The notes: generated by a model from the letters alone, not told the origin. Shown: positions 44,654 to 58,757, counted from the first letter of the stretch. The stretch: 64,000 nucleotides of DNA from Chryseosolibacter indicum (GCF_018598585.1 NZ_JAHESD010000008.1:62001-126000); one strand, 5' to 3'. Numbers and translations are program-made.

Positions 44654-45073
44654 TTATCGCTTGAAGCCTAATGCGCTACCACCGCAATAATTGGTAGAAC
44701 CATCAAAAGTATATTGGATATAATAGATGCCAGTTGTGTTGCAGGGATATGCAATTGCTGATATAAACTGTCCGCCTACTTTACTTGTGGCTACTTTGTT
44801 TCTGTTTGAGTCATATAGACTTACTACAATACCATCTGTATTTTGTCCTGCAGCACAAATATTTATCATGTATTGAGTACCTTTTGTAAATACATAGGAG
44901 TATTCTACGTAGTCTTTTCCGCCTTTTTCTATTTTGTAACTTTTAAGGAAGTTGAAGCCTTCTGCAAGCTTAGGTATACATTCTGAGCTTAACGCATCGG
45001 CATTGCATTGTCCAATTACTTCTAAAGTGCTGAAAACAAAAACAGACAGAACAATGAATATTAACTTTTTCAT
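44654..45073 (-). CDS. Small secreted Cys-containing protein
   Basis: A 139-residue exported protein that I do not recognise. Signal peptide 1-21 (MKKLIFIVLSVFVFSTLEVI then GQ). The mature part has five cysteines (CNADALSSEC near its N-terminus, NICAAG, AYPCNTT and YCGGS), probably disulfide bonded, and strand-like stretches (VEYSYVFTKGTQYMINICAA, DGIVVSLYDSNRNKVATS, GIYYIQYTFDGS) that look like a PPC-type beta sandwich. It is the last gene of the ABC exporter unit; it may be exported or anchored by that system, which is inferred from position. Confidence 0.65.
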   Translation of the reverse strand: MKKLIFIVLSVFVFSTLEVIGQCNADALSSECIPKLAEGFNFLKSYKIEKGGKDYVEYSYVFTKGTQYMINICAAGQNTDGIVVSLYDSNRNKVATSKVGGQFISAIAYPCNTTGIYYIQYTFDGSTNYCGGSALGFKR

Positions 45074-45091
45074 ATTGGCTCTTTATTGATC

Positions 45092-45991
45092 TTAGCTGAT
45101 TACCTTGGTTCTGATGTTTGTAATAATTTCGCTGATGCTCTTAATATCATCAGGCGTGATGTCAATAGTGCTTGTGCTATTGTCCTTAATAACCATTACA
45201 CCATTTACAACTTCGAATGTTGACTCCTTGTATGTATAAGTGATCTTCACTTTATCAAAAGCGGCTTTCAGCTGCTCCATATCGGTCAACAATGATGCCA
45301 TGTTTTGGTCTGTGTCTTTGTAGAAAGAAAGCAAAAGAATGATATTCTCAAGGATCACTTTTTGTTCACCGATGGTTTCCTGTAATTGCTTGTTATCAGG
45401 ATTTGCTTTTGAGACCTCACACACAATGTGCAATGCTTCTAACCATCCACCTGTAAGGAAGAGCACGCTTAAGTTGGCTCTGCTTTGCGTCTGAAGGTAG
45501 TGGTTAATGCTGTTGAAGTTCTGTGTTGTAATCAATAATAAAGAATCAAGGTTCTTGCTGTTTGTGGCAAGTCTTCCGATTGTTTCAATATCAAAAAACT
45601 GGCCAAGGTTAAGACCATCAGCTAGATCCTTAATAGAAGCCATATACTTAACGCCATCCTGATTTTGTTCATAGATGTTAGTATATCCCAAATCGGTTCC
45701 GTATACGCCAAGATTGAGAGCCTTTTTGTAATTACTGTTATACTTAGGGAGGTTATCGTTAGAGTTAAGATAAGATACGTTGTATTTCTTACCTGACTCT
45801 TTCAGCAATACAGATATTTCCAGCGGGCTGGGTATCGATTGCAGAATATCACCAATTACCTCTTCAGATATAGCAGGGCCTTCGGCTTTTGCAGTATCAA
45901 GCCCCTCAAGAAAGGCTTGTTCTTCCGTTTTTTTTCCGGAGCTGCAAGCGAACAAGCAAGCTATAATGAGTCCGGTTGTAATAATTCTCAT
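45092..45991 (-). CDS. Lipoprotein of unknown function
   Basis: A 299-residue lipoprotein: signal MRIITTGLIIACLFACSSGK with the lipobox LFAC, acylated Cys16. The mature protein is mostly helical (AISEEVIGDILQSIPSPLEI, LLLITTQNFNSINHYLQTQS, LLTDMEQLKAAFDKVKI). I do not recognise a family. Eighteen bases separate it from the secreted protein gene and 68 from the ABC exporter gene, all on one strand, so the three are probably one transcription unit. It may be a periplasmic partner of the exporter. Confidence 0.7.
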   Translation of the reverse strand: MRIITTGLIIACLFACSSGKKTEEQAFLEGLDTAKAEGPAISEEVIGDILQSIPSPLEISVLLKESGKKYNVSYLNSNDNLPKYNSNYKKALNLGVYGTDLGYTNIYEQNQDGVKYMASIKDLADGLNLGQFFDIETIGRLATNSKNLDSLLLITTQNFNSINHYLQTQSRANLSVLFLTGGWLEALHIVCEVSKANPDNKQLQETIGEQKVILENIILLLSFYKDTDQNMASLLTDMEQLKAAFDKVKITYTYKESTFEVVNGVMVIKDNSTSTIDITPDDIKSISEIITNIRTKVIS

Positions 45992-46059
45992 AGGTGTAAA
46001 ATTATCCCGTTACAAAATTAAAAATTCAGCATTCCTTGCCAAAATGTTACTTGGATAGG

Positions 46060-49000
46060 TTAATTCTTTTTTGGTAAAGGCATCTTGAACTTCATTCCAG
46101 GCACTTTATCAAAAGCATTAATGATTTTTCTAAATACTTCGAAATATAAAGTAAGGTAAAGTATCGCGCTCATTACCCAGATGATCAAAATGTCAAACCA
46201 ATACGTGTCGACTGACACCCCAAACAAATTCTTTCTTGGAGCAAAAAAATGTGTTCTGTAGTCCAAAGCATGTTCGGGTTTAGGATCAAGGAAAACAGGG
46301 TTAATCTGTTGATAGAGTTTCCCATTAAATTCAATAACCCTGTCTTTTACGGATATATTGGTTACAAGGTCAGCAAGGCTCTCGTTGTGATATCTATTCT
46401 TATAGTCATTTAGTTTATAATCGCTGCCTTTTTCTGATTCTCGTGCGTAGATCCTACGTTCGCGTTCATTTACCGCTTTGTTATAAGCATCCTGATAAAA
46501 CTTCTTGTATCCTGTAAAGTATGCGTCAAGTTTCTGATCAAAAGCCGAGGTAAATTCATTTAGTGTCCATGCTTTATTCAGGTTTAAGCCCTCAAGACCC
46601 TTTTTGTAATAGGGTTCCTCCTGAATGGTGTTTTGAATGATAGCTAAATACTGACCCATAGTAGCACGAACTGAGTCATTCTTTTGGCTGATATTATCAT
46701 TAATAAATTTTCTCCTTTTATTTAACTCATCGACCAGAAATGAAGAATTAAAATCCGACTGTGCTTCGACTTTTTCTAAAGCATAATAAGGTTCTTCGTA
46801 TGAATTGTTCTTGAATTGATAAACAGCCATCGCTTCATATGCCCAGCGTGATGCCATCATGTCGGCTACAATAGGTACTTTGCCCTTTGTACTGATCATG
46901 TTATTAAGCTTGTCGAAACTGAATAACAATCCGCTGAGAATCATTTGTGGGATAAGCAATAGCGGAATCATTACGTAAACAGTAACAGCAGAGTTGAATG
47001 CAGATGATATGTTGAGTCCTAGCACATTTGCCATGCAGGACGTTGTAAACAATACAAACCAGAATGGTAATAGCATGCTCCATTCAATCTCAAGAATTAA
47101 ATGCCCCACCAAAACGAAAGTGAGTGTTTGAATGGCAGAGAGCACGAATAGGATCGAGATTTTGGATAACAGATAGCTATTCCAGCTTAGGTTTAAGAAT
47201 GATTCACGCTTTAGAATTTTTCTATCACGAATAATTTCTTCAGCACTTACTGTTAACCCCATAAACAGGGCAACAATAATGCTCATTAGCATAAACGCAG
47301 GGAAGTTATCATTAAACCGGAACATGTATTCCTTGCCACCTGGTGCACTTCTGTACTTAATAATAAAGGCAAGAATAAGTGCCAAGAGTGGTCCTTCCAA
47401 AAGGTTAATCAGAAGATATTGTTTGTTACTTATTTTGGCTAACGTATCCCTTATTGTAAAAATAATTGTCTGCTTGATCTTGCTGGGTAGATTCAGGGAG
47501 TGAGGAGGCTCCTCCTTTACATCTTCAACACGGTTTATTTTAAACCTTTCTTTGTATAAGTCATACCATTGTGGGGGAGTGATCTTTCTTTTACTGGTTG
47601 GTTGCCCGTACTCGTCAACAACCTTTGCTTCAATGATATTAAATATCTGCTCAGGGTTTACATTACCACAAGTCTCACACTGACCTCTGTTGCTGTCTAC
47701 CTGAAGGGTAGATTTCTTAAAGTAGGTAATGGCTTCAACAGGAGGGCCATAGTAAGCCTGGTATCCACCGGTATCCATAATAATCATCTTATCGAACATC
47801 TTGTAGATGTCTGATGACGGCTGATGGATTACAACAAATATTAATTTACCTTTTAGTGAAAGTTCTTTTAATAAGTCAATTACGTTTTCAGAATCTCTTG
47901 AAGATAAACCAGAAGTAGGTTCATCTAGGAAGAGAATTGCAGGTTCGCGAATAAGTTCAAGGGCTATATTTAAACGCTTACGTTGCCCTCCAGAAATTGT
48001 CTTGTCCAAGGCATTTCCAACCCTCAAATCCTTACGCTGATCAAGGCCGAGGTTTTCGAGAACTTCCATTACACGTTTATGTAACTGCTCTTCCGTGAAA
48101 TCAGCGAAGCAAAGTTTTGCGTTGTAATATAAGTTCTGGTAAACCGTAAGTTCTTCTATTAATAAGTCATCCTGAGAAACATAGCCGATAACTCCATGAA
48201 TCTTTTCTTTCTGTTCATGAATATCAAATCCGTTAATGAGGATACGCCCTTGTGTTGGGGTTACCAATCCGGCCAGTACATTTAATAATGTTGTCTTTCC
48301 TGCGCCACTGGCTCCCATAATGCCTATAAGCTTTCCGGGACCTTCAGATATCAATACGTTTCTGAGCCCAATGCCTCCGTTAGGAAATTTTAATTCATCA
48401 ATAGCGGCGTTAAAGGAAAGCTTAGTTGTTTTTAATTCTTCATTATAGTTCGCAACGAGATCACTGTAATATAGTGCATCGCCAGCTTGTGTCTTTATCG
48501 TGCTTCCATGCGAAAACAGGTATACCCTGTTCGGTTGCATAGGAAAGCCGTTGAGAATATTGGCCTCATCACCAAGGTACTTGGTAAAGTACATCTCAAC
48601 ACTGCGCACGCGCATGAAAACAAGGTTCCCCTGAATATGACCATGGACATGCTTATATGTTTTTGTACCATCTGCATGTTCAGAGTTAAGAAGGAGTATA
48701 TCGGGGAAAGCAAGTGACTTAGCATTGTCAGTGATAACAAAGTTTTCAATCAGCTCATACTCACCTTCTGTGATGTTAAAGACTGTTGAAACTGTATTGA
48801 TAATTTCCCTGCGTTGTGGCGAAAAGTTTTTATCGGTACCAACAAGTTCGAGAAGTTTAATAAGAACAACTACTTTCTGTTTTTGTGTAAGTGTTTTGTT
48901 GATCTTCTTACATATACCCAGGGTCTTTACAGAATCCTTTACAGAAGTTAATCTCGATTTGCCTTCGTCTTCTTCTTTACCATAACCAGAAAACTGATCA

Positions 49001-49152
49001 TATAGCGCCAAGTACTCCTTTACAGAATCCTTATCTAATTCAGTTTGAAAAAAAGTAATTACGTATTGGCGTTCCTTCTCTGTAACTCCGCCATCCTGTT
49101 TGGTAATGATGGCAAAAAGCTGGGTTAAAGCTTTGAGTATTTCCTCACTCAT
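46060..49152 (-). CDS. TerB-like/ABC (ABCG-type) fused ATPase-permease
   Basis: A 1030-residue half-transporter. A TerB/tellurite-resistance-like helical domain (about 1-145) and a beta-rich FHA-like region (about 160-240; VEMYFTKYLGDEANILNGFP, HGSTIK, YYSDL) precede the ABC ATPase: Walker A GASGAGKT (280-287), signature ISGGQ (386-390), Walker B AILFLDEP (405-412), and the H-loop in VVIHQPSSDIY. A Cys-x2-Cys pair (QCETCGNVNP) follows. An ABC2-type membrane domain (six TM) is split by a large soluble helical insert (about 790-960) before a last TM near 990. This layout is like eukaryotic ABCG exporters. Substrate unknown. Confidence 0.88.
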   Translation of the reverse strand: MSEEILKALTQLFAIITKQDGGVTEKERQYVITFFQTELDKDSVKEYLALYDQFSGYGKEEDEGKSRLTSVKDSVKTLGICKKINKTLTQKQKVVVLIKLLELVGTDKNFSPQRREIINTVSTVFNITEGEYELIENFVITDNAKSLAFPDILLLNSEHADGTKTYKHVHGHIQGNLVFMRVRSVEMYFTKYLGDEANILNGFPMQPNRVYLFSHGSTIKTQAGDALYYSDLVANYNEELKTTKLSFNAAIDELKFPNGGIGLRNVLISEGPGKLIGIMGASGAGKTTLLNVLAGLVTPTQGRILINGFDIHEQKEKIHGVIGYVSQDDLLIEELTVYQNLYYNAKLCFADFTEEQLHKRVMEVLENLGLDQRKDLRVGNALDKTISGGQRKRLNIALELIREPAILFLDEPTSGLSSRDSENVIDLLKELSLKGKLIFVVIHQPSSDIYKMFDKMIIMDTGGYQAYYGPPVEAITYFKKSTLQVDSNRGQCETCGNVNPEQIFNIIEAKVVDEYGQPTSKRKITPPQWYDLYKERFKINRVEDVKEEPPHSLNLPSKIKQTIIFTIRDTLAKISNKQYLLINLLEGPLLALILAFIIKYRSAPGGKEYMFRFNDNFPAFMLMSIIVALFMGLTVSAEEIIRDRKILKRESFLNLSWNSYLLSKISILFVLSAIQTLTFVLVGHLILEIEWSMLLPFWFVLFTTSCMANVLGLNISSAFNSAVTVYVMIPLLLIPQMILSGLLFSFDKLNNMISTKGKVPIVADMMASRWAYEAMAVYQFKNNSYEEPYYALEKVEAQSDFNSSFLVDELNKRRKFINDNISQKNDSVRATMGQYLAIIQNTIQEEPYYKKGLEGLNLNKAWTLNEFTSAFDQKLDAYFTGYKKFYQDAYNKAVNERERRIYARESEKGSDYKLNDYKNRYHNESLADLVTNISVKDRVIEFNGKLYQQINPVFLDPKPEHALDYRTHFFAPRKNLFGVSVDTYWFDILIIWVMSAILYLTLYFEVFRKIINAFDKVPGMKFKMPLPKKN

Positions 49153-49190
49153 GGGATTTAACTAGTTAGGGGCTTAATCTATAAAGATAG

Positions 49191-49258
49191 CAAAAAAATA
49201 TCGGTTACCGGTCAGTTTTATGCATAGCATGGAAAAACTATTTTGACTGGTAACCGAT
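49191..49258 (-). terminator. Strong intrinsic terminator of the SiaC-like unit
   Basis: ATCGGTTACCGGTCA (49200-49214) pairs with TGACTGGTAACCGAT (49244-49258), 14 of 15 Watson-Crick plus one G:U, with an inner AGTTTT/AAAACT stem. On the minus strand the stem runs into a T-run (complement of 49191-49198). It ends the sia/che operon, so the ABC gene downstream is transcribed separately. Confidence 0.88.
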
Positions 49259-49281
49259 CCTCTAAAAAAATCGATTCGTCT

Positions 49282-49644
49282 TTAGTAAGTTCTAAAGTCG
49301 AAAGGGATTTCAACAAGTTCGGAGAACTCTTGTCCTGCTTCTTCCATGTCTTCGTCATCTTCATGGAAGTACCAGTTTATTTTCATTCCTTTAATATCTT
49401 CCAATGCTGATAGTACATCGAGAATCAGTTTAGAAGATGCTGTATTGAAATATTCAAGTTTGAATACAAATTCAGTTGAAGGATTAGGCTCTGCACTATA
49501 TTTCGCAATCCACTCAAGTACAGGTCTGTAAAATTCAGCTGAATCTTCTGGCAGCGAACGGCCTGAAATTTCAAAGATTCCGTTTTTCTTATCAAGGATT
49601 ATTTTCGGTGTATCTTCGGTTCCTTCGAGGTTTAAGATTTCCAT
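49282..49644 (-). CDS. siaC: SiaC-like regulatory phosphoprotein (DUF1987)
   Basis: A 120-residue cytosolic protein matching DUF1987: DTPKIILDKKNGIFEISGRS, LPEDSAEFYRPVLEWIAKYS and FVFKLEYFNTASSKLILDVL. In Pseudomonas aeruginosa SiaC the kinase SiaB phosphorylates Thr68 and the phosphatase SiaA removes that phosphate; here the threonine in YFNTASSK is also residue 68. Unphosphorylated SiaC there activates the diguanylate cyclase SiaD; no such cyclase is found here, so the partner differs or lies elsewhere. Last gene of the operon; the strong terminator follows. Confidence 0.9.
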   Translation of the reverse strand: MEILNLEGTEDTPKIILDKKNGIFEISGRSLPEDSAEFYRPVLEWIAKYSAEPNPSTEFVFKLEYFNTASSKLILDVLSALEDIKGMKINWYFHEDDEDMEEAGQEFSELVEIPFDFRTY

Positions 49645-49676
49645 GGTATTTATGCTCGTTTATGTTCTAAAATTAA

Positions 49677-50228
49677 TTATTCAGCATTTTCACGCTGTAC
49701 ATTTACTTTAAGGCAAAAGAAGCAGTACTCTGCATTCATTTCGGGAAATGTATATTCAAGTCTGTCTCCTGATTTTCTTGCCATATCAACGAAACCTAAT
49801 CCTGCTCCTCCTTTATCTGATATCGTTGTGTTTTTGATAATCTCTTTGTAAAGATCTTTTAATCCTTCCTTATCCAGGCTATTGATTCGTTCAAGCTTAT
49901 CTTTCAGGGGACCAATATTCTCCTTACGGATCGGGTTGCCAGACATAATCGTGTAACGTGTTGATTCCCGCCCTATCAGGAAGATAGCAGAATGGTTATG
50001 GATAGTTCCATCAATCAATTCATCACTATGTTTTACTATATTCTGTAGCGCTTCAACCATTACATTGAACACTTTGCGCTTGATGCTTGAATCTTCTCCT
50101 GAAGAATCAATGTTTCGTTCTGCCATGGCCAGAATAGACTTGGTTGTTTCCTGCGTGAAATCGCCCTGGTAAACCAATATCAGCTTCTGTGACATCATGG
50201 TTTGGTGCAGGTCAAAGATAAAGTTCAT
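49677..50228 (-). CDS. siaB: SiaB-like GHKL protein kinase
   Basis: A 183-residue single-domain kinase. The GHKL N-box is KVFNVMVEALQNIVKHSDE with Glu59 and Asn63, and the G-box is SDKGGAGLGFVDMARKSGD (138-147). No receiver or sensor part is attached, as in SiaB. By analogy it phosphorylates the SiaC-like protein on Thr68; the histidine used by histidine kinases is missing. It lies 32 bases before siaC and 87 after the PP2C gene, same strand. Confidence 0.87.
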   Translation of the reverse strand: MNFIFDLHQTMMSQKLILVYQGDFTQETTKSILAMAERNIDSSGEDSSIKRKVFNVMVEALQNIVKHSDELIDGTIHNHSAIFLIGRESTRYTIMSGNPIRKENIGPLKDKLERINSLDKEGLKDLYKEIIKNTTISDKGGAGLGFVDMARKSGDRLEYTFPEMNAEYCFFCLKVNVQRENAE

Positions 50229-50315
50229 GTGCTAATGGATTACGTTTGTAATTTGCTAAGTTATTAAGTTTTTGTTAAACCCAATCGTTTAACGGTTATA
50301 AAGGAGTTCTATGTT

Positions 50316-53300
50316 TTAAAATTTAATTCCGATTAATAAAACATCATCTGTTTGCTTATGGTCACCTCTCCAGCTCTCCCACTCATGATCAAAGATGTTC
50401 ACCGCTTCGTTCATTGATAAGGTATGCACCCGCTCAATGATTTCACGTGTTCTCTTCGGGCCGAATTTTCTGCCTTCAGGACCTCCGAATTGATCAGGGA
50501 AACCATCTGAGCTGAAATAGATAGAGTCTCCTTTGCTCAATTTAATTTTCGTGTTGGTAAAGTTTGTCTGGTTCTTAAATATGCCTCCACCAATAGGGAA
50601 CTTGTTACCTTTAACTTCTTCCATCGCGCCGTTCTTCATGATATACAAAGGTCTGTGCGCTCCGGCGTATTCTACCTCTCCAGTTGCCATATTTATCTTA
50701 CACAACGCTATGTCCATACCATCTTTGGTGGTTGCGTCTTCATCTTGTCTCAGCGTAGTAGTAACACCTTCATCCAGCAGGTCGAGGATTTTGCCTGGTT
50801 CTGTTACTTTTCGGCTTCGTACAATGTCGTTCAATAAGAAGTATCCAATTAAAGAAAGAAGAGCTCCTGGTACGCCGTGTCCTGTACAATCTACGGCTGC
50901 GATAAAGATTTCGTCTTTGATCTGAACAAACCAAGGGAAGTCTCCGGAAACAACATCACGTGGTTTATACAGGATGAATGAATCAGGAAGAGCGCGGTTA
51001 ATTACGCGGGTATTAGGGAGAATAGCAGTTTGTATTCTCTTCGCGTAGTTAATACTTTCTGTGATCTTCTTGTTCTTATTCTGGATTTCAAGTTCGATGA
51101 TCTTTCTGTCGGTGATGTCGTGCGAAACGACAAGTACTGACTCAAGTTTTTCCGTCTCATCAAATTCAGGAATTGCATTTACCTGCATTACGCGCTTACC
51201 CATTTCCGAAGGGAAGTCCATTTCAGTAGCAACCTTACCGCTGGTCTGGTTAACTTCTTCAACAATCTTCAACCAAGCTTCAAAAACTGTAGAATCAAGT
51301 GCCGTTTCCCTTACGTTTTTGTTTAAGAAGTCAGAAGGATTCTTGCCTGTATATGCTTCAATAATCGGGTTGATGTAAGAGATAGAGCCTTCTTCCAAAC
51401 GTGTGATAAGATCAGGCGAGTTTTCTGATAACGCTTGCATTTTGCTTCGCATACGCTGTTCTTGTTCGGCTCTTCTGCGCTCTGTAATATCCCTTGAGTT
51501 TAAGATATAACCGTGAATAGCAGGGTTAGCCATACAGTTCGTTCCGGTAGATTCAATCCACATGTAACTACCGTCTTTTGCCTTATATTCATACTGAACA
51601 GTAACTTTTTCATCAGGAGACTCAATCATCTTTTTGAACAAGTCTTTGAAGATGTTTCTGTGGTCAGGATGAACTTTGTCAACGTCGCTCTTACCGATCA
51701 TTTCTTTCTGTCCGTAACCAAGAATAGTTTCTACTGATGGCGAAATGTAACGGATCGTTTCATCTTCTTCATAAATAGTGATTACCTCAGACGCGTTTTC
51801 AAGAAGAAGCTGCATCCGCTTCTGCGTGCGGTTTACTTCTTCTATCTGCTCTTCAAGCTTTTGGTTAGAACGTTGTAGTTCCTCCTGCGTAGCCTGCATT
51901 TCTTCTGCGTTCTGACGGAGTACTTCCTGCTTCTCTTTCAACTCATTACTCATTTCCTGAGATTCAGCAAGTAGTCTTCTGGTACGTTCGTTTACTTTGA
52001 TATTGAAAATTGTTCTCGCCAGGATTAAGCTAAGCTCCTGAACAAATTTTACTTGTGACTGATCGAATTTTTTAAAGCCCGCAAACTCAAGGATACCATA
52101 TACTTCTTCATTTGTTATAAGCGGGACAATCAATATACATTTAGGTCTCTGGTCTCCAAGAATACCTGAAGTAATGGATACGTAGTCATCAGGTATTTCG
52201 GTTCTTAATATTGTATCTTTTTCTGCGGCAGCCTGTCCTACAAGACCTTCAGCAAACTTAAACTTGGCTTTCAGGTACTTCTTACGGTTGTATGCCCAAC
52301 TGGCTCGCATTTCAATCATCGGTTGCTTTTCATTCTCATCATTGATTACGTAAAAAGCTCCCTGTATCGCACCTATTTTGTCAAGAATAAAACGGATAAC
52401 ATCTTCACCAAGATCGTCGGTGCTGTCGTGCATCCTTAAAATTTCACTGATCTCTGCAACGCCTCTTACAATCCAGTTACGTTCTTTATCTCTGCGTTCA
52501 TTCTCAATCAGATTATGACGCATGTTGATAAGCGACATACCAAGGAGGTCGTTCTCACTGGCTGGCTTGAATTGCGTGTCGTATTTTCCTTCTCCGATTC
52601 TTTGGGCAAAGTCTGCGTTTCCTTTCAGTGTTTTTACTAACTCATCTACTTTCGCTTCCATTTGCCCGAACTCATCATTGGCGTGGTCTTCCGTACTCTC
52701 TGGTAAAACACCCTGTGCTACCATGCTAAGCTTATTACGCATGCCATATAAAGGCCGGGTAAGCGAACGCGACAATACCATGGAGAGCATTGTTGCAATA
52801 ATGATAACTCCAATGCCGGCATATACCTGTGTCCTAATGAGAGAACCTGTATCACCGTTAGCCTCTTTCGTATCAATTTTTGATAAAAGGACTATGTTAC
52901 CGTAGTTAACAGGGCGAGCTGTTTCTAAAACCTTTTCTTCTCTGTAGTCAATTCCTTCAGGAGCAACTGCCTTTTTGTCAAGTGTGTTCTTGATGGCAGC
53001 CACTACGTTGTCTTGTTCGTTAAAGGGTTTTAGCGTTACGTCTTCACGTAGGGGGCTAATGAAAGAAATCTTTTTTGCAACAGGATTGTATTGTGCTAAG
53101 ATAACTTCGCCTGTTTCTCCTAATCCTGTGTAGTTTTTAAGTACACGGTATGCCTCTTTAAGATTGATTTTTGTTATTAATAGTTGTGTTCCTGAAGGTG
53201 TCGTTACTGGGGCTGCGGCAAAAGAGTGATAGCCTAAAGAATCTTCTCTTACCATACTAAAGTAAATGCCGCGTTGTGCCTGTTCAAATGTTATTCCGTC

Positions 53301-53783
53301 AGGGTCAAGGAGGTTACCTGTTTTTCCATTGGTAGAAGTTGCAATAGCACCGGTAGTGCTTGTCAGGTAGATCTCCTCAAAACCGAAAAGTTCTTTCTGT
53401 TCATTTAAGTAATCTGCCAACGATTGAGCGGGAGCTACTTCTGGTACTTCAGCTTCTGCTGTGTCGGCTTCTGCTGTCTCAGGAGCGTTGCTCATTAGCA
53501 TCATGAGGTCGTCTCCTCCTGTGTTGGCCGTTGAAGTAGATCCACCTTCTTTAATTGCAGAAGATTCCTGCATAAAATGAATTGCAGAAGTTACTTTTTC
53601 GAAGTAATGATTGAAATATGCCGCACGATTGTCTGCTATAACGGTCAGATTGGTGATAAACTTCTCCTGCTTGGTCTTTAATACGTAGTCGTATGTAAAT
53701 AAGCTAATTGCAGTAACAGCGACCGTTGCCAAAAGCAGAACAAGCAACGTGACCTTTGTACTGATTTTAATTCCTTTTATCAT
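50316..53783 (-). CDS. HAMP-GAF-PAS-PAS SpoIIE/PP2C phosphatase (SiaA-like)
   Basis: A 1155-residue membrane receptor phosphatase. N-terminal TM (about 8-30), periplasmic sensor with an Ala/Glu-rich insert, second TM near 320, HAMP (about 340-400), GAF (about 440-600), a coiled coil (about 600-660, with NAEEMQATQEELQRSNQ), two PAS domains (about 665-905), then a PP2C/SpoIIE domain (about 935-1155). Metal Asp residues are in VVSGDFPWF, FIAAVDCTGHGVPGALLS, FSSDGFPDQFGG and QTDDVLLIG. By analogy with SiaA it dephosphorylates the SiaC-like protein on a signal. P. aeruginosa SiaA has only HAMP and PP2C; the GAF and PAS parts are extra. The ligand is unknown. Confidence 0.9.
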   Translation of the reverse strand: MIKGIKISTKVTLLVLLLATVAVTAISLFTYDYVLKTKQEKFITNLTVIADNRAAYFNHYFEKVTSAIHFMQESSAIKEGGSTSTANTGGDDLMMLMSNAPETAEADTAEAEVPEVAPAQSLADYLNEQKELFGFEEIYLTSTTGAIATSTNGKTGNLLDPDGITFEQAQRGIYFSMVREDSLGYHSFAAAPVTTPSGTQLLITKINLKEAYRVLKNYTGLGETGEVILAQYNPVAKKISFISPLREDVTLKPFNEQDNVVAAIKNTLDKKAVAPEGIDYREEKVLETARPVNYGNIVLLSKIDTKEANGDTGSLIRTQVYAGIGVIIIATMLSMVLSRSLTRPLYGMRNKLSMVAQGVLPESTEDHANDEFGQMEAKVDELVKTLKGNADFAQRIGEGKYDTQFKPASENDLLGMSLINMRHNLIENERRDKERNWIVRGVAEISEILRMHDSTDDLGEDVIRFILDKIGAIQGAFYVINDENEKQPMIEMRASWAYNRKKYLKAKFKFAEGLVGQAAAEKDTILRTEIPDDYVSITSGILGDQRPKCILIVPLITNEEVYGILEFAGFKKFDQSQVKFVQELSLILARTIFNIKVNERTRRLLAESQEMSNELKEKQEVLRQNAEEMQATQEELQRSNQKLEEQIEEVNRTQKRMQLLLENASEVITIYEEDETIRYISPSVETILGYGQKEMIGKSDVDKVHPDHRNIFKDLFKKMIESPDEKVTVQYEYKAKDGSYMWIESTGTNCMANPAIHGYILNSRDITERRRAEQEQRMRSKMQALSENSPDLITRLEEGSISYINPIIEAYTGKNPSDFLNKNVRETALDSTVFEAWLKIVEEVNQTSGKVATEMDFPSEMGKRVMQVNAIPEFDETEKLESVLVVSHDITDRKIIELEIQNKNKKITESINYAKRIQTAILPNTRVINRALPDSFILYKPRDVVSGDFPWFVQIKDEIFIAAVDCTGHGVPGALLSLIGYFLLNDIVRSRKVTEPGKILDLLDEGVTTTLRQDEDATTKDGMDIALCKINMATGEVEYAGAHRPLYIMKNGAMEEVKGNKFPIGGGIFKNQTNFTNTKIKLSKGDSIYFSSDGFPDQFGGPEGRKFGPKRTREIIERVHTLSMNEAVNIFDHEWESWRGDHKQTDDVLLIGIKF

Positions 53784-53811
53784 AACTCTCCTGTGGGGTT
53801 TTAGGCTTTAA

Positions 53812-54573
53812 TTAACCGTTTATGCTATTGGCAATTAGTTGCGCTGACTCTTCTACAAATTTTCTTTGATCTTCAGTAATAGGGGTAAACGAAGCTATTT
53901 CCATAACACCTAAAGTTTTGTTAGCTTCTTGTATTGGTACAACAAGAAGATACTTTGGTGATGCACTACCCAGGCCCGAAATTATCTTTACATAACCGTC
54001 AGGAACTTCATCTACATATAATGTTTTATTACCTGCAGCTGATTGGCCGACGAGCCCTTCTCCGAACTCATAAGATAATACAGTGCTTTCTCCAATGCTT
54101 AATGCATATCCTCCCTGTAATTCAACAATGCGCTTGCCTTCCTTTTCTGAAGTTGCGTATACGGCTCCCTGTCCTGCATCCAATTGCTTGCAAATTGCCT
54201 GCAGGGCAGCATGCATAAGTTCTTTCGTACTTTTTGCCTGTTGTAAATTGGCTTTTACGCTTTCTAATGAGATTGTAGTCTGAGAACCTGCATCATTTGC
54301 TTCATTCGCAGCAAACGCACTTTCTAATTTCTTATCACGAAAAACGATTACTTCGTTTTTGTATTGCAGCGCGTACCATATTGTAATACCTCCTAGTATG
54401 AAGGTAATACCTAAAGTAGTATATACGGGAGTGAAAACAGATTGATAGCCCGATGTGAGGCTAAGTTCATGCGGCAGCGAGTAGATGGAGTAGATGCTGT
54501 AGATGATTCCAAGAAAAAACAGTCCGGCCAGGAATAAGCCAACTTTGTAATGATCTTTAAGTAGTTCCATCAT
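53812..54573 (-). CDS. Two-TM GAF domain protein
   Basis: A 253-residue inner-membrane protein: TM helices near residues 10-32 (VGLFLAGLFFLGIIYSIYSI) and 44-67, a short coiled coil, then a GAF domain (about 110-253) with GEGLVGQSAAGNKTLYVDEV and PDGYVKIISGLGSASPKYLL. The same GEGLVGQ and PDxYxxIxSGLG motifs occur in the GAF domains of the PP2C gene and the 56916-58757 sensor, so the three GAFs are close relatives. No catalytic domain; likely a signal-input partner. Start overlaps the cheB stop as ATGA. Confidence 0.85.
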   Translation of the reverse strand: MMELLKDHYKVGLFLAGLFFLGIIYSIYSIYSLPHELSLTSGYQSVFTPVYTTLGITFILGGITIWYALQYKNEVIVFRDKKLESAFAANEANDAGSQTTISLESVKANLQQAKSTKELMHAALQAICKQLDAGQGAVYATSEKEGKRIVELQGGYALSIGESTVLSYEFGEGLVGQSAAGNKTLYVDEVPDGYVKIISGLGSASPKYLLVVPIQEANKTLGVMEIASFTPITEDQRKFVEESAQLIANSING

Positions 54574-55163
54574 CTGTATTGTTTATCTAATTCTTTTAAA
54601 AAATCCACAATCTGATCGACCTTCATAACGTGGTCTATTTTAGTTGCAGCCATCGCGGCTTTGGGCATTGTATCAATCATACATTCAGAAGGCTCCTGTA
54701 CGATGGTAAAACCGCCTCTATCGTGAATGGCCTTCATGCCTGCAGCCCCGTCCCGGTTAGCGCCCGACAATAATATCCCAATTAATTTTTCTTTGTAAAC
54801 AAAGGCACAAGTTGATAATGTAATATCTATAGCCGGTCTTGAATTATTCACCATCTCTTCTGTCGATAAGGCAAAATAATTCCCGAGTTCAACAGACATG
54901 TGATAATTGGCAGGGGCTAAGTAAACTGAGCCTTTTTTTATACTTTCCTTGTCATGTGGTTCAGTGACCTGTACTACACTTTTTATCGACAAGGCCTCTA
55001 CGAAACCATTGCGCACGTGCTTGAGACGGTGTAAGCACATAATAATAGGTATAGGGAATGACTTTGGCAGCTGTGACAGGATTTTTACGACACCCTGAAA
55101 GCTGCCTGCCGACCCTCCAATAACAACGGCCTTATAGCTGTTATTTATGTTATACTTACTCAT
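54570..55163 (-). CDS. cheB: Stand-alone CheB methylesterase
   Basis: A 197-residue CheB catalytic domain with no receiver domain. The triad is Ser18 (VIGGSAGSF), His45 (MCLHRLKHV) and Asp138 (GANRDGAAGM), as in CheB S164, H190 and D286 of Salmonella. It should remove methyl groups from glutamates or deamidate glutamines on a receptor. It is not controlled by a phosphorylated receiver here. No CheA, CheW or standard chemoreceptor is in the window, so the target is likely a neighbour. Twenty-one bases after cheR. Confidence 0.93.
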   Translation of the reverse strand: MSKYNINNSYKAVVIGGSAGSFQGVVKILSQLPKSFPIPIIMCLHRLKHVRNGFVEALSIKSVVQVTEPHDKESIKKGSVYLAPANYHMSVELGNYFALSTEEMVNNSRPAIDITLSTCAFVYKEKLIGILLSGANRDGAAGMKAIHDRGGFTIVQEPSECMIDTMPKAAMAATKIDHVMKVDQIVDFLKELDKQYR

Positions 55164-55184
55164 TACGTCTCTAACAGCTTCGTT

Positions 55185-56009
55185 TTAGTCCTTTATTTTC
55201 TTATAAATTTTCTCTTCATTGTTAACCACTATAAACCTATTGGCGTAATCGCACCATATTAATGATTCTTTAGAACCAATAGCGAGGTAGCCGTATTTGA
55301 ATAAGCTTTCATGGAATTTCTTGAGTACATCGTTTTGTAATGACTGGTTAAAGTAGATCATTACATTACGGCAAAGTATCAAATCGAATTTGTTGAAGAT
55401 GTCCCCTAAAACAAGGTCATGTTTCCTGAAAGAAACATTGGTTAGCAAATCTTTATTAAAAACAGCATAACCGTTTTCTTCCTTGTAATAATCTTTAAGG
55501 GTAGGAGCCGATCCCTGGAAACGAATGTAGTTCTTTTCATTTAACTCCATGTTCTTAATGGGATAGGTCGCTGATTTAGCGCGTTCAAGTATATTCACAT
55601 CCAGATCGGTTGCAATAATACTCACATCATGCAGTATACCCATTTCCTTGAGCATAATGCACATTGTCATTACCTCCTCACCAGACGAGCAGCCTGCATG
55701 CCAGATCTTGAACTGCCTGTGATTCAAAAGAATTGCCGGAATTATCTCTTCACGCATAACCCGCCAGAAGCTGGGGTCTCGGAACATCTCTGTAACGTTT
55801 ACTGTAAGCTCATCAAGAAACTCATTGATGAACATGGGCGAGTCATTGAATTTTTTAAGAAGCGTTTCTACGTTAAGCTTTTTAAGCTCCATTATTCTGA
55901 GAACGCGTCTTTTAAATGATGACATTGCGTAGTTGCGGAAATCATAATTATACTTCTGGTATATGACTTCCGAGATTCGTTTAAGGTCAGCTATGTCAAT
56001 ATCCTGCAT
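55185..56009 (-). CDS. cheR: CheR methyltransferase
   Basis: A 274-residue CheR. The N-terminal helical domain contains ELTVNVTEMFRDPSFWRVMR and the SAM domain has IWHAGCSSGEEVMTM (about 102-116, motif I; standard GCSTGEE) and ILCRNVMIYFNQ. It methylates glutamates on receptors using SAM. First gene of the minus-strand operon cheR, cheB, GAF, PP2C, siaB, siaC, joined by gaps of at most 87 bases and one overlap. Position suggests the modified protein is in this cluster. Confidence 0.95.
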   Translation of the reverse strand: MQDIDIADLKRISEVIYQKYNYDFRNYAMSSFKRRVLRIMELKKLNVETLLKKFNDSPMFINEFLDELTVNVTEMFRDPSFWRVMREEIIPAILLNHRQFKIWHAGCSSGEEVMTMCIMLKEMGILHDVSIIATDLDVNILERAKSATYPIKNMELNEKNYIRFQGSAPTLKDYYKEENGYAVFNKDLLTNVSFRKHDLVLGDIFNKFDLILCRNVMIYFNQSLQNDVLKKFHESLFKYGYLAIGSKESLIWCDYANRFIVVNNEEKIYKKIKD

Positions 56010-56915: not shown

Positions 56916-58757
56916 CTAAGCATTATCTTCTGAAAGTCGCAGCGCTTCAAGCTGTATGCGCAACGTCTTCTCTACTTCAGTAGCCAGTTCCCAATCGTCG
57001 CCTTTTGCAGGTTTTTCTGCCAGCTTTTGTTCCAAGGTTTTAATGGTTGCACTATAGTCAAGTTCTTTCAGGCGTAACTCTTCCTTCAACCGTTCATGAT
57101 CCCTGGCAGGAATTATCTGTTTGGTTTGTTGCTCCAGCTCATTAATACGATTGATATAATCCTTTTCTTTACGTGCCAGCTCCTCCTGGGTGGCCTGCAA
57201 TTCTTCCATGTTTTGTCGCATCTCTTCCTCCTGAGCACGCATTACTTCAGTTTGTTGCTGGAACTGCTCAATCAGGTGACGGTTTTTCTGTGCAGATCTT
57301 ACTGAAGCTAGCGTAGAGGCAATCGTTTCGGCAAGCTTCTCAACAAAAGCTATCTCGTGAGGCAGGTAGTTTTTGAATGACGCCAGTTCTACTATTCCAT
57401 AAACTTCGGTATCAACTTTTAAGGGCACCATTAGAAGTGCTTTTGGATTTGCGCCTCCCAGCCCTGACGTTATTCTGATATATTCATCAGGAATGTCATT
57501 CAATAGTGTAGTTTCTCTTTCAAGGAAAGTCTGTCCAAGAAGACCCTGTCCTAATTTTACTTTTTGCGCCTCATACTTCTTTGTGTCAAAAGCAAATAAG
57601 GATACCAGTTCAAGATGTTTATTGCTCTCGTCTTCGTCATTAAGAATGTATAAACTTCCCTGGTTGGAGTTAGTGTATTTTACAAGAGAAGAAATGATCT
57701 TATCTCCAAGTGTTGTAATGTTATCGTTAGATGAACGCAGTATATCTACAAATTTTGTAAGTCCTTCATTGGCCCACTGTCTTCTCTGTTCAGCCTCGTT
57801 TAACTGTCTTAATTTCAATTGCATAGAAACTAAGGAGTCGGCAAGCTTATTCTTTCCTGACTTGTATTCGCTATCGAGAATAGTATAATCATAATCGAGT
57901 TTGCCTTCTCCAATAGCAGCCACAAATTCGGTTGCATCTTTAAGTTGTTCAATAATAACATTGATTTCTGACGCTAAGGCACCGACTTCGTTTTTGGGAA
58001 AGCTGAAATCCTGGTGCTGATTGGCTGCGTTATCCGTCAACTTTCGTAAAGGCTTCAGAACATATTTAAAGAAAAGGTAGAATAAAGATGAGAAGATCAG
58101 AATATCCAGTATTATAAAGAAGAAGAACCACCCTTCTACTGATGCCTTCTTGTTCTCAGCTTCTTCCTGCAGGTCTACCATTAGCTTCTCATACCAGTTT
58201 GACATGGTGAGCCATTGACCGGCAAGAACAGTTTTATTAGACGTTTTGCTAATTTCCGTAACCATGGCAACGCTTGTAGCCACGGTCGCAGAAACAGAAT
58301 CGGTAATGGTAGAAGTGGAGTCAGATTCCTGTATTATTTGCTGAATTTCAGGCTCGTTTTGTATTGAACTCATTACATCAGCGCGGTATGTGACCCAATG
58401 ATTGTAAAGGTTATCAAACGAAATTCTGGGCAGGCGAGGGAGTGGCTTAAGGAAGATTTCTGTTTCATCGACACGGCCACCCAGTCCAAGGGTTTGTAGT
58501 TGATGGTCCTGTTCGTTAAGGCGGCTGTATATTTCAGGTGCCAGGCCTGGTTGTCCGCTTGTATGAAGTTGTACGATATATGCGATTTGTTGACCCTTAA
58601 GTTGCGTACTTCTTGCAAAATCTTTCTTTCCTTCAATCTCTTCTAAGGTTTCTATTTTGCTGCGTATGATAAGGTATTCGCACAAAAAAATGGCACTCAT
58701 GCCAATTAACAAGTAGATGGCGAATTGCTTCAATGACTTGTTTTTCCAAAACTTCAT
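56916..58757 (-). CDS. HAMP-GAF sensor protein without an output domain
   Basis: A 613-residue inner-membrane receptor: TM near 10-30, a helical periplasmic part (about 32-205) with a Ser/Thr-rich stretch, second TM near 212-232, HAMP-like region (FKYVLKPLRKLTDNA, about 230-285), GAF (about 335-485; LGQGLLGQTFLERETTLLND, PDEYIRITSGLGGANPKALL) and a long coiled coil (about 490-600) with QNMEELQATQEELARKE. There is no kinase, cyclase, phosphatase or MCP signalling tip. The GAF and coiled coil closely resemble those of the PP2C protein, which suggests a receptor working with that system. Genes between them are on the other strand. Confidence 0.85.
   Translation of the reverse strand: MKFWKNKSLKQFAIYLLIGMSAIFLCEYLIIRSKIETLEEIEGKKDFARSTQLKGQQIAYIVQLHTSGQPGLAPEIYSRLNEQDHQLQTLGLGGRVDETEIFLKPLPRLPRISFDNLYNHWVTYRADVMSSIQNEPEIQQIIQESDSTSTITDSVSATVATSVAMVTEISKTSNKTVLAGQWLTMSNWYEKLMVDLQEEAENKKASVEGWFFFFIILDILIFSSLFYLFFKYVLKPLRKLTDNAANQHQDFSFPKNEVGALASEINVIIEQLKDATEFVAAIGEGKLDYDYTILDSEYKSGKNKLADSLVSMQLKLRQLNEAEQRRQWANEGLTKFVDILRSSNDNITTLGDKIISSLVKYTNSNQGSLYILNDEDESNKHLELVSLFAFDTKKYEAQKVKLGQGLLGQTFLERETTLLNDIPDEYIRITSGLGGANPKALLMVPLKVDTEVYGIVELASFKNYLPHEIAFVEKLAETIASTLASVRSAQKNRHLIEQFQQQTEVMRAQEEEMRQNMEELQATQEELARKEKDYINRINELEQQTKQIIPARDHERLKEELRLKELDYSATIKTLEQKLAEKPAKGDDWELATEVEKTLRIQLEALRLSEDNA

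Follow-up and report, generated by a model that had tools for sequence, protein, structure and literature searches.

The 64,000-nucleotide stretch of DNA analysed here (the window) comes from Chryseosolibacter indicum (GCF_018598585.1 NZ_JAHESD010000008.1:62001-126000) and carries a cluster of nine minus-strand genes, conserved as a set, in which the components of a SiaABC-type phosphorylation switch lie beside the gene of a putative ATP-binding cassette (ABC) transporter (44654-56009, counted within the window; Table 1). The gene order is cheR-cheB-TM-GAF-siaA-siaB-siaC-ABC-lipoprotein-secreted protein, where TM stands for transmembrane and the ABC gene encodes a TerB/FHA-like/ABC/ABC2-membrane protein. 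The original prediction, made from the sequence alone, had described the six tightly spaced genes from cheR to siaC as a unit ended by a strong terminator, in which a SiaABC-type switch is merged with CheR/CheB and GAF sensors. Open reading frame and domain searches agree on all six genes and their domains, but the unit comprises nine genes: the hairpin with its T-run is real, yet lies inside the cluster, and three conserved genes come after it.

Conservation was assessed at three levels. Close loci (n=80, SiaC 78-94% identical) were taken from a genome collection, divergent loci (n=40) were hand-picked from search lists for spread over genera and come, with few exceptions, from other families of the order, and presence or absence was scored in 194 genomes of the order. 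Residue conservation was read from 71-81 orthologue rows per protein.

Table 1. Features of the cluster, with positions counted from the first nucleotide of the window (aa, amino acids; pLDDT, predicted local distance difference test).
Feature	Position	Strand	Description
cheR	55185..56009	-	274 aa methyltransferase; PF01739 1e-42, CheR_N
cheB	54570..55163	-	197 aa, methylesterase domain without receiver; PF01339 5e-50
TM-GAF protein	53812..54573	-	253 aa; GAF_2 1e-13; hydrophobic segment 12-30
siaA-like membrane sensor phosphatase	50316..53783	-	1155 aa, HAMP-GAF-coil-PAS-PAS-PP2C
EEMQATQEE segment in SiaA coil	51879..51905	-	residues 627-635; near-invariant in 76 rows
siaB-like kinase	49677..50228	-	183 aa; PF19788, NF038262 above cut-off, 6kko
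siaC	49282..49644	-	120 aa; PF09345 6e-40; PDB SiaC 6kko/6k4f 4e-15
SiaC T68 codon (putative phosphorylation site)	49441..49443	-	T in 81/81 rows; T68 in P. aeruginosa
Hairpin and T-run in siaC-ABC gap	49192..49258	-	stem 49249-49258/49200-49209
TerB/FHA-like/ABC/ABC2-membrane protein	46060..49152	-	1030 aa, ABCG-type order; 3' of siaC in 80/80 close loci
TerB domain of ABC protein	48748..49131	-	residues 8-135; PF05099 in 71/71 members; 2h5n Z 9.6
FHA-like domain of ABC protein	48451..48714	-	residues ~147-234; pLDDT 86; Rad53 FHA1 Z 7.7; 5yyx E 0.009
Lipoprotein	45092..45991	-	299 aa; lipobox-like start; no known family
Secreted protein	44654..45073	-	139 aa; signal-like start; no known family

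A SiaABC-type switch and a putative ABCG-type transporter

In Pseudomonas aeruginosa, the kinase SiaB phosphorylates and the membrane PP2C phosphatase SiaA dephosphorylates SiaC at T68, and phosphorylation blocks the binding of SiaC to the diguanylate cyclase SiaD (PMC7278518); the four genes form a tight operon (PMC8457831, PMC7647112, PMC7278518). The cluster resembles this system in its SiaC with T68, its SiaB, its SiaA-type membrane PP2C protein and its tight operon, and differs from it in the added CheR, CheB and TM-GAF proteins and in the ABC, lipoprotein and secreted-protein genes that come after siaC. Its SiaC is a full-length PF09345 member whose alignment to P. aeruginosa SiaC runs through the NT motif, with N67 and T68 invariant (81/81 rows); it scores below the cut-off of the equivalog model NF038265 (85 vs 150 bits). 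The SiaB-like protein scores above the cut-off of the NCBIfam SiaB-family model NF038262 (176 vs 85 bits), matches the P. aeruginosa SiaB structure 6kko at 3e-13 and has E59 and N63 invariant among its orthologues, so that the catalytic glutamate is kept. Two transmembrane segments (11-29 and 315-333), a weakly matching HAMP domain, GAF, coil, two PAS domains and a SpoIIE/PP2C domain make up the SiaA-like protein. The SiaA model, the closest curated model of this PP2C domain, covers the last 264 aa (892-1155, the PP2C part) at 4.8e-61, and the protein is below the cut-off of the full-length SiaA equivalog. Since its PP2C metal motifs, the SiaC and SiaB residues and the CheB triad (S18, H45 and D138; 72 rows) are invariant, and the S-adenosylmethionine motif of CheR nearly so (71 rows), all enzymes of the cluster look active. 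Elsewhere, the two SiaC fusions examined as pointers to the partner of SiaC (L183, 3774-4739; L184, 3558-4601) both join SiaB and SiaC in one protein and so confirm no more than the kinase pair.

The ABC protein carries its ATPase domain N-terminal to the ABC2 membrane domain, with Walker A, signature and Walker B at residues 280, 387 and 406, transmembrane segments that begin at 580 and an alignment to ABCG2 over 273-751, features by which it classifies as a putative ABCG-type half-transporter. An AlphaFold2 model of residues 1-263, built from 71 sequences, consists of a TerB bundle, with 2h5n as its match, and an FHA-like beta sandwich. The latter matches Rad53 FHA1 over 83 residues, and FHA domains account for most rows among the matches listed; a PDB profile search with the head returned the FHA domain of MEK1 (5yyx) as its sole match. 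These moderate scores support the assignment of a predicted FHA fold to the head. Relatives of the head were absent from viral contigs, and a comparison with anti-phage defence families matched the protein in its ATPase part only.

The two genes that follow are less easily classified. The lipoprotein is present in 75/80 close and 30/40 divergent loci at E 1e-3, has no Pfam match and has no convincing fold match (best Z 7.0, helical), and the secreted protein is present in 73/80 and 23/40 loci, respectively. Because ABC paralogues away from siaC, beside other genes, also adjoin a lipoprotein homologue (L153 in the window genome, L158 and L163), the ABC protein and the lipoprotein look like an independent module that sits with SiaABC in this lineage. 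The window genome encodes two further TerB/FHA-like ABC proteins away from siaC, L153 (G000:C114) and L154 (G000:C106), one of which has the neighbouring lipoprotein homologue.

Conservation of the SiaC-ABC pair

The ABC gene lies directly 3' of siaC in all 80 close loci, and the upstream order is kept wherever the contig is not cut. Each cluster gene recurs in 23-40 of the 40 divergent loci at a median identity of 32-71%, while the window's genes on either side of the cluster recur in only 0-1 of them; conservation across about 120 loci rules out a chance arrangement. Four divergent loci retain siaB-siaC-ABC without siaA, cheR and cheB (L117, L130, L143 and L144), and another retains it with a cheR (L140, cheR-siaB-siaC-ABC); the genome of the latter has a second locus, cheB-TM-GAF-siaA-siaB-siaC, cut by a contig end (L141). 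As some loci keep siaB-siaC-ABC alone, SiaC and the ABC protein are the tightest pair of the cluster. Among the 194 genomes of the order, SiaC is found in 116 and the ABC head in 112, a count that takes in ABC paralogues; 110 genomes have both, 76 have neither and 8 are discordant (186 concordant; Fisher p ~6e-44, which is too small since the genomes are related). Linkage is the stricter figure: of the 96 genomes whose SiaC is at least 55% identical, 79 have the ABC gene no more than 3.5 kb away from siaC. Two families (f1 and f16) each contain genomes with the pair and genomes without it, in a concordant manner, which implies two or more joint gains or losses of the pair. In a different order of the same class, a TerB/FHA-like ABC gene accompanied by a lipoprotein gene stands convergent to siaB-siaC (L175), so the SiaC-ABC association may extend past this order.

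The siaC-ABC gap itself is 60 bp or shorter in 22/77 loci. In the window it holds the hairpin ATCGGTTACC...GGTAACCGAT with its T-run (49200-49258), and related hairpins stand at the same place in three near relatives (L003, L009 and L042). This element could be either a terminator or an attenuator. No Rfam family was detected in the window at the gathering threshold.

The missing cyclase and the partner of SiaC

The only mechanism described for SiaC/DUF1987 is activation of a diguanylate cyclase; a full-text literature search on the family names yielded a single paper, which deals with SiaD. A search with PF00990 (E up to 0.001) found no GGDEF domain in the window genome (99.4% complete), nor in any of the 116 SiaC-positive genomes of the order, and no GGDEF gene stands in the operon of close relatives; the predicted absence of a cyclase gene from the window is thereby confirmed and extended to the whole genome, and domain matches bear out the reading as a SiaABC-type switch that lacks a diguanylate cyclase. 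Applied to 14 control genomes and to 296 genomes sampled across the phylum, the PF00990 search detects GGDEF in 8 and 157 of them, respectively. Within the order, a single genome out of 194 gave a match, and it lacks SiaC; this match (L112, G030:C1:2037506-2037712) covers positions 3-77 of 161. That the switch still controls a cyclase, encoded elsewhere or missed, follows the P. aeruginosa precedent, but at the sensitivity of this search it is contradicted by all of these results and is extremely improbable; a GGDEF partner at another genomic location was accordingly rejected. The switch is widespread in an order almost without GGDEF proteins (116/194 genomes, with up to 23 copies per genome), and cyclic di-GMP therefore cannot be its general output. 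The highest copy numbers occur in several genomes of two families (f12 and f15), each with 11 to 23 SiaC copies, in this order without GGDEF. Elsewhere in the phylum, one family has the canonical siaA-siaB-siaC-GGDEF operon (L169, L170 and L174), and there the GGDEF gene occupies the position that the ABC gene holds in this cluster.

A second indication of a changed partner comes from the docking site. SiaC of P. aeruginosa binds the SiaD stalk in the region of K77 to Q86 (PMC8457831), and a motif was built from this segment and from SiaD-like proteins. The motif is present beside SiaC in the three GGDEF proteins of the canonical operons, in short proteins of 158-199 aa at six loci (L098, L105, L108, L181, L183 and L185, with a hydrophobic segment in L183), in proteins some 350 aa long (L171-L173) and in a protein with a weak PP2C match (L180). 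The proteins in this list that lack GGDEF are likely to be new SiaC targets, as judged from the motif and its position beside siaC. Searched as a DNA pattern in 46 genomes, the motif gave nine matches, seven of which adjoin SiaC. Unlike SiaABCD, the cluster has neither SiaD/GGDEF nor a SiaD-type stalk motif: the motif occurs neither in its nine proteins nor in the window genome. In addition, its SiaC differs from that of P. aeruginosa at positions that contact SiaD (E10, L31 and A69), whereas the 12 stalk-linked SiaC proteins compared all carry S69 and lack E10. The missing motif and the altered contacts fit a change of partner, without naming that partner.

Taken together, the position of the switch beside a conserved transporter suggests that SiaABC was redirected to the control of envelope transport, and we consider it fairly probable that the partner switch has moved from a diguanylate cyclase to an ABCG-type membrane transport module. 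Another output in place of the cyclase had been anticipated, and the cyclase is indeed missing; what had been overlooked is the output itself, most likely the TerB/FHA-like ABC transporter with its lipoprotein, which gives the switch a concrete and testable alternative target. Judging from the invariant residues and the biochemistry of the P. aeruginosa proteins, T68 of SiaC would be phosphorylated by SiaB and dephosphorylated by SiaA, the membrane sensor phosphatase. Unphosphorylated SiaC might then dock on the cytoplasmic TerB/FHA-like head, so that its phosphorylation state would set the activity of the ABC protein and gate the transporter. The ABC protein would work with the lipoprotein and the secreted protein, with which it is associated in the genomes, and CheR/CheB would tune a sensor of the unit through reversible glutamate methylation. 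A wider version of this model remains tentative: SiaC would be an exchangeable adaptor (for a GGDEF cyclase, small stalk proteins, a PP2C-like protein or an ABC transporter) that here gates the ABC protein directly, combined with a sensor tuned by CheR/CheB methylation of a non-chemoreceptor.

Several observations weigh against a rewiring to transport. The hairpin separates siaC from the ABC gene in the window genome, the two genes are unlinked in 17 of the 96 genomes (partly through contig ends), and the co-occurrence counts depend on relatedness. The enrichment of changed SiaC residues at the interface is statistically weak, and that SiaC binds the ABC protein directly is an inference. In a by-eye comparison of the alignment with the Rad53 residues that we take to form the phosphothreonine site, the canonical residues were not seen in the FHA-like domain. 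Some of these points favour a different explanation: the target of SiaC would be a protein encoded elsewhere or a sensor within the SiaC operon (TM-GAF or the SiaA coil), and the ABC, lipoprotein and secreted-protein genes would be neighbours inherited together that have no more than a signal or regulon in common. The hairpin, the ABC protein's lack of a SiaD-type docking motif, the near-invariant SiaA coil and the ABC paralogues that work without a siaC neighbour speak for it, but loci reduced to siaB-siaC-ABC, the near-perfect SiaC-ABC co-occurrence and the encoding of other SiaC targets directly beside siaC make it rather unlikely.

A transporter under comparable control is known from Mycobacterium tuberculosis, where the FHA-ABC transporter Rv1747, with two FHA domains, a phosphothreonine binder among them, is under the control of the partner protein Rv2623, whose threonine phosphorylation matters (PMC5549992). 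The cluster shares with this pair an FHA-like domain joined to an ABC transporter and a candidate control by a threonine-phosphorylated partner; it differs in that its ABC protein has TerB and one degenerate FHA-like domain and in that the candidate controller is SiaB/SiaA/SiaC. To our knowledge, Rv1747 has no TerB domain. An Rv1747-like mode, in which the FHA-like domain would bind phosphorylated T68, was considered and not adopted, as the binding residues look degenerate.

CheR, CheB and a possible methylation input

The original prediction also held that CheR and CheB add a methylation input to the switch. Their association with siaABC proved stable: cheR and cheB, which are strongly conserved, occur together in all 69 close loci whose upstream sequence is long enough and in 23/40 divergent loci, and are thus part of the unit in most loci. 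This conservation could also suggest that CheR/CheB are the output, under the control of SiaC, with the ABC protein as sensor or signal supplier. Given that 17 of the 40 divergent loci do not carry the two genes together (some being cut by contig ends) and that siaB-siaC-ABC exists without cheR and cheB, such an arrangement appears very unlikely. A methylation input to the switch remains plausible. Chemosensory pathways with alternative cellular functions use CheR/CheB outside flagellar taxis (PMC3447774), and the cluster resembles them in its CheR and CheB catalytic domains. Unlike these pathways, it contains no genes for a methyl-accepting chemotaxis protein (MCP), CheA or CheW. A domain search of the 197 aa of CheB gave CheB_methylest alone, without the N-terminal receiver domain of chemotaxis CheB. 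The window genome itself has MCPs. Across the order, 50/194 genomes have SiaC, the ABC protein and CheR with no detectable MCP, and 33 of the 50 have exactly one CheR. In seven of these 33 (L114, L115, L116, L132, L134, L137 and L138) the sole CheR is that of the cluster, and in the absence of any detectable chemoreceptor its substrate there is predicted to be something other than an MCP; such genomes allow a direct search for non-MCP methylation substrates. A literature search, covering open-licence papers only and thus weak evidence, found no description of SiaABC combined with an ABC transporter and CheR/CheB.

A candidate methylation motif, EEMQATQEE, lies in the SiaA coil, which we take to resemble the methylation helices of MCPs in a similar register. 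It occurs in 82/194 genomes, against none for a reversed control. Compared across loci, it does not follow cheR adjacency: the motif is gone in several loci with cheR (L132, L134 and L152) and kept in some without it (L113, L139 and L142).

A HAMP-GAF protein encoded 5' of cheR (56916-58757, minus strand) has the related coil motif EELQATQEE in common with SiaA, and three more proteins with the HAMP-GAF/SiaA coil motif are encoded elsewhere in the window genome (L155, L156 and L157). The HAMP-GAF protein may serve the unit as a sensor but is less consistently present than the nine cluster genes, and its count in divergent loci is inflated through cross-matches to GAF domains.

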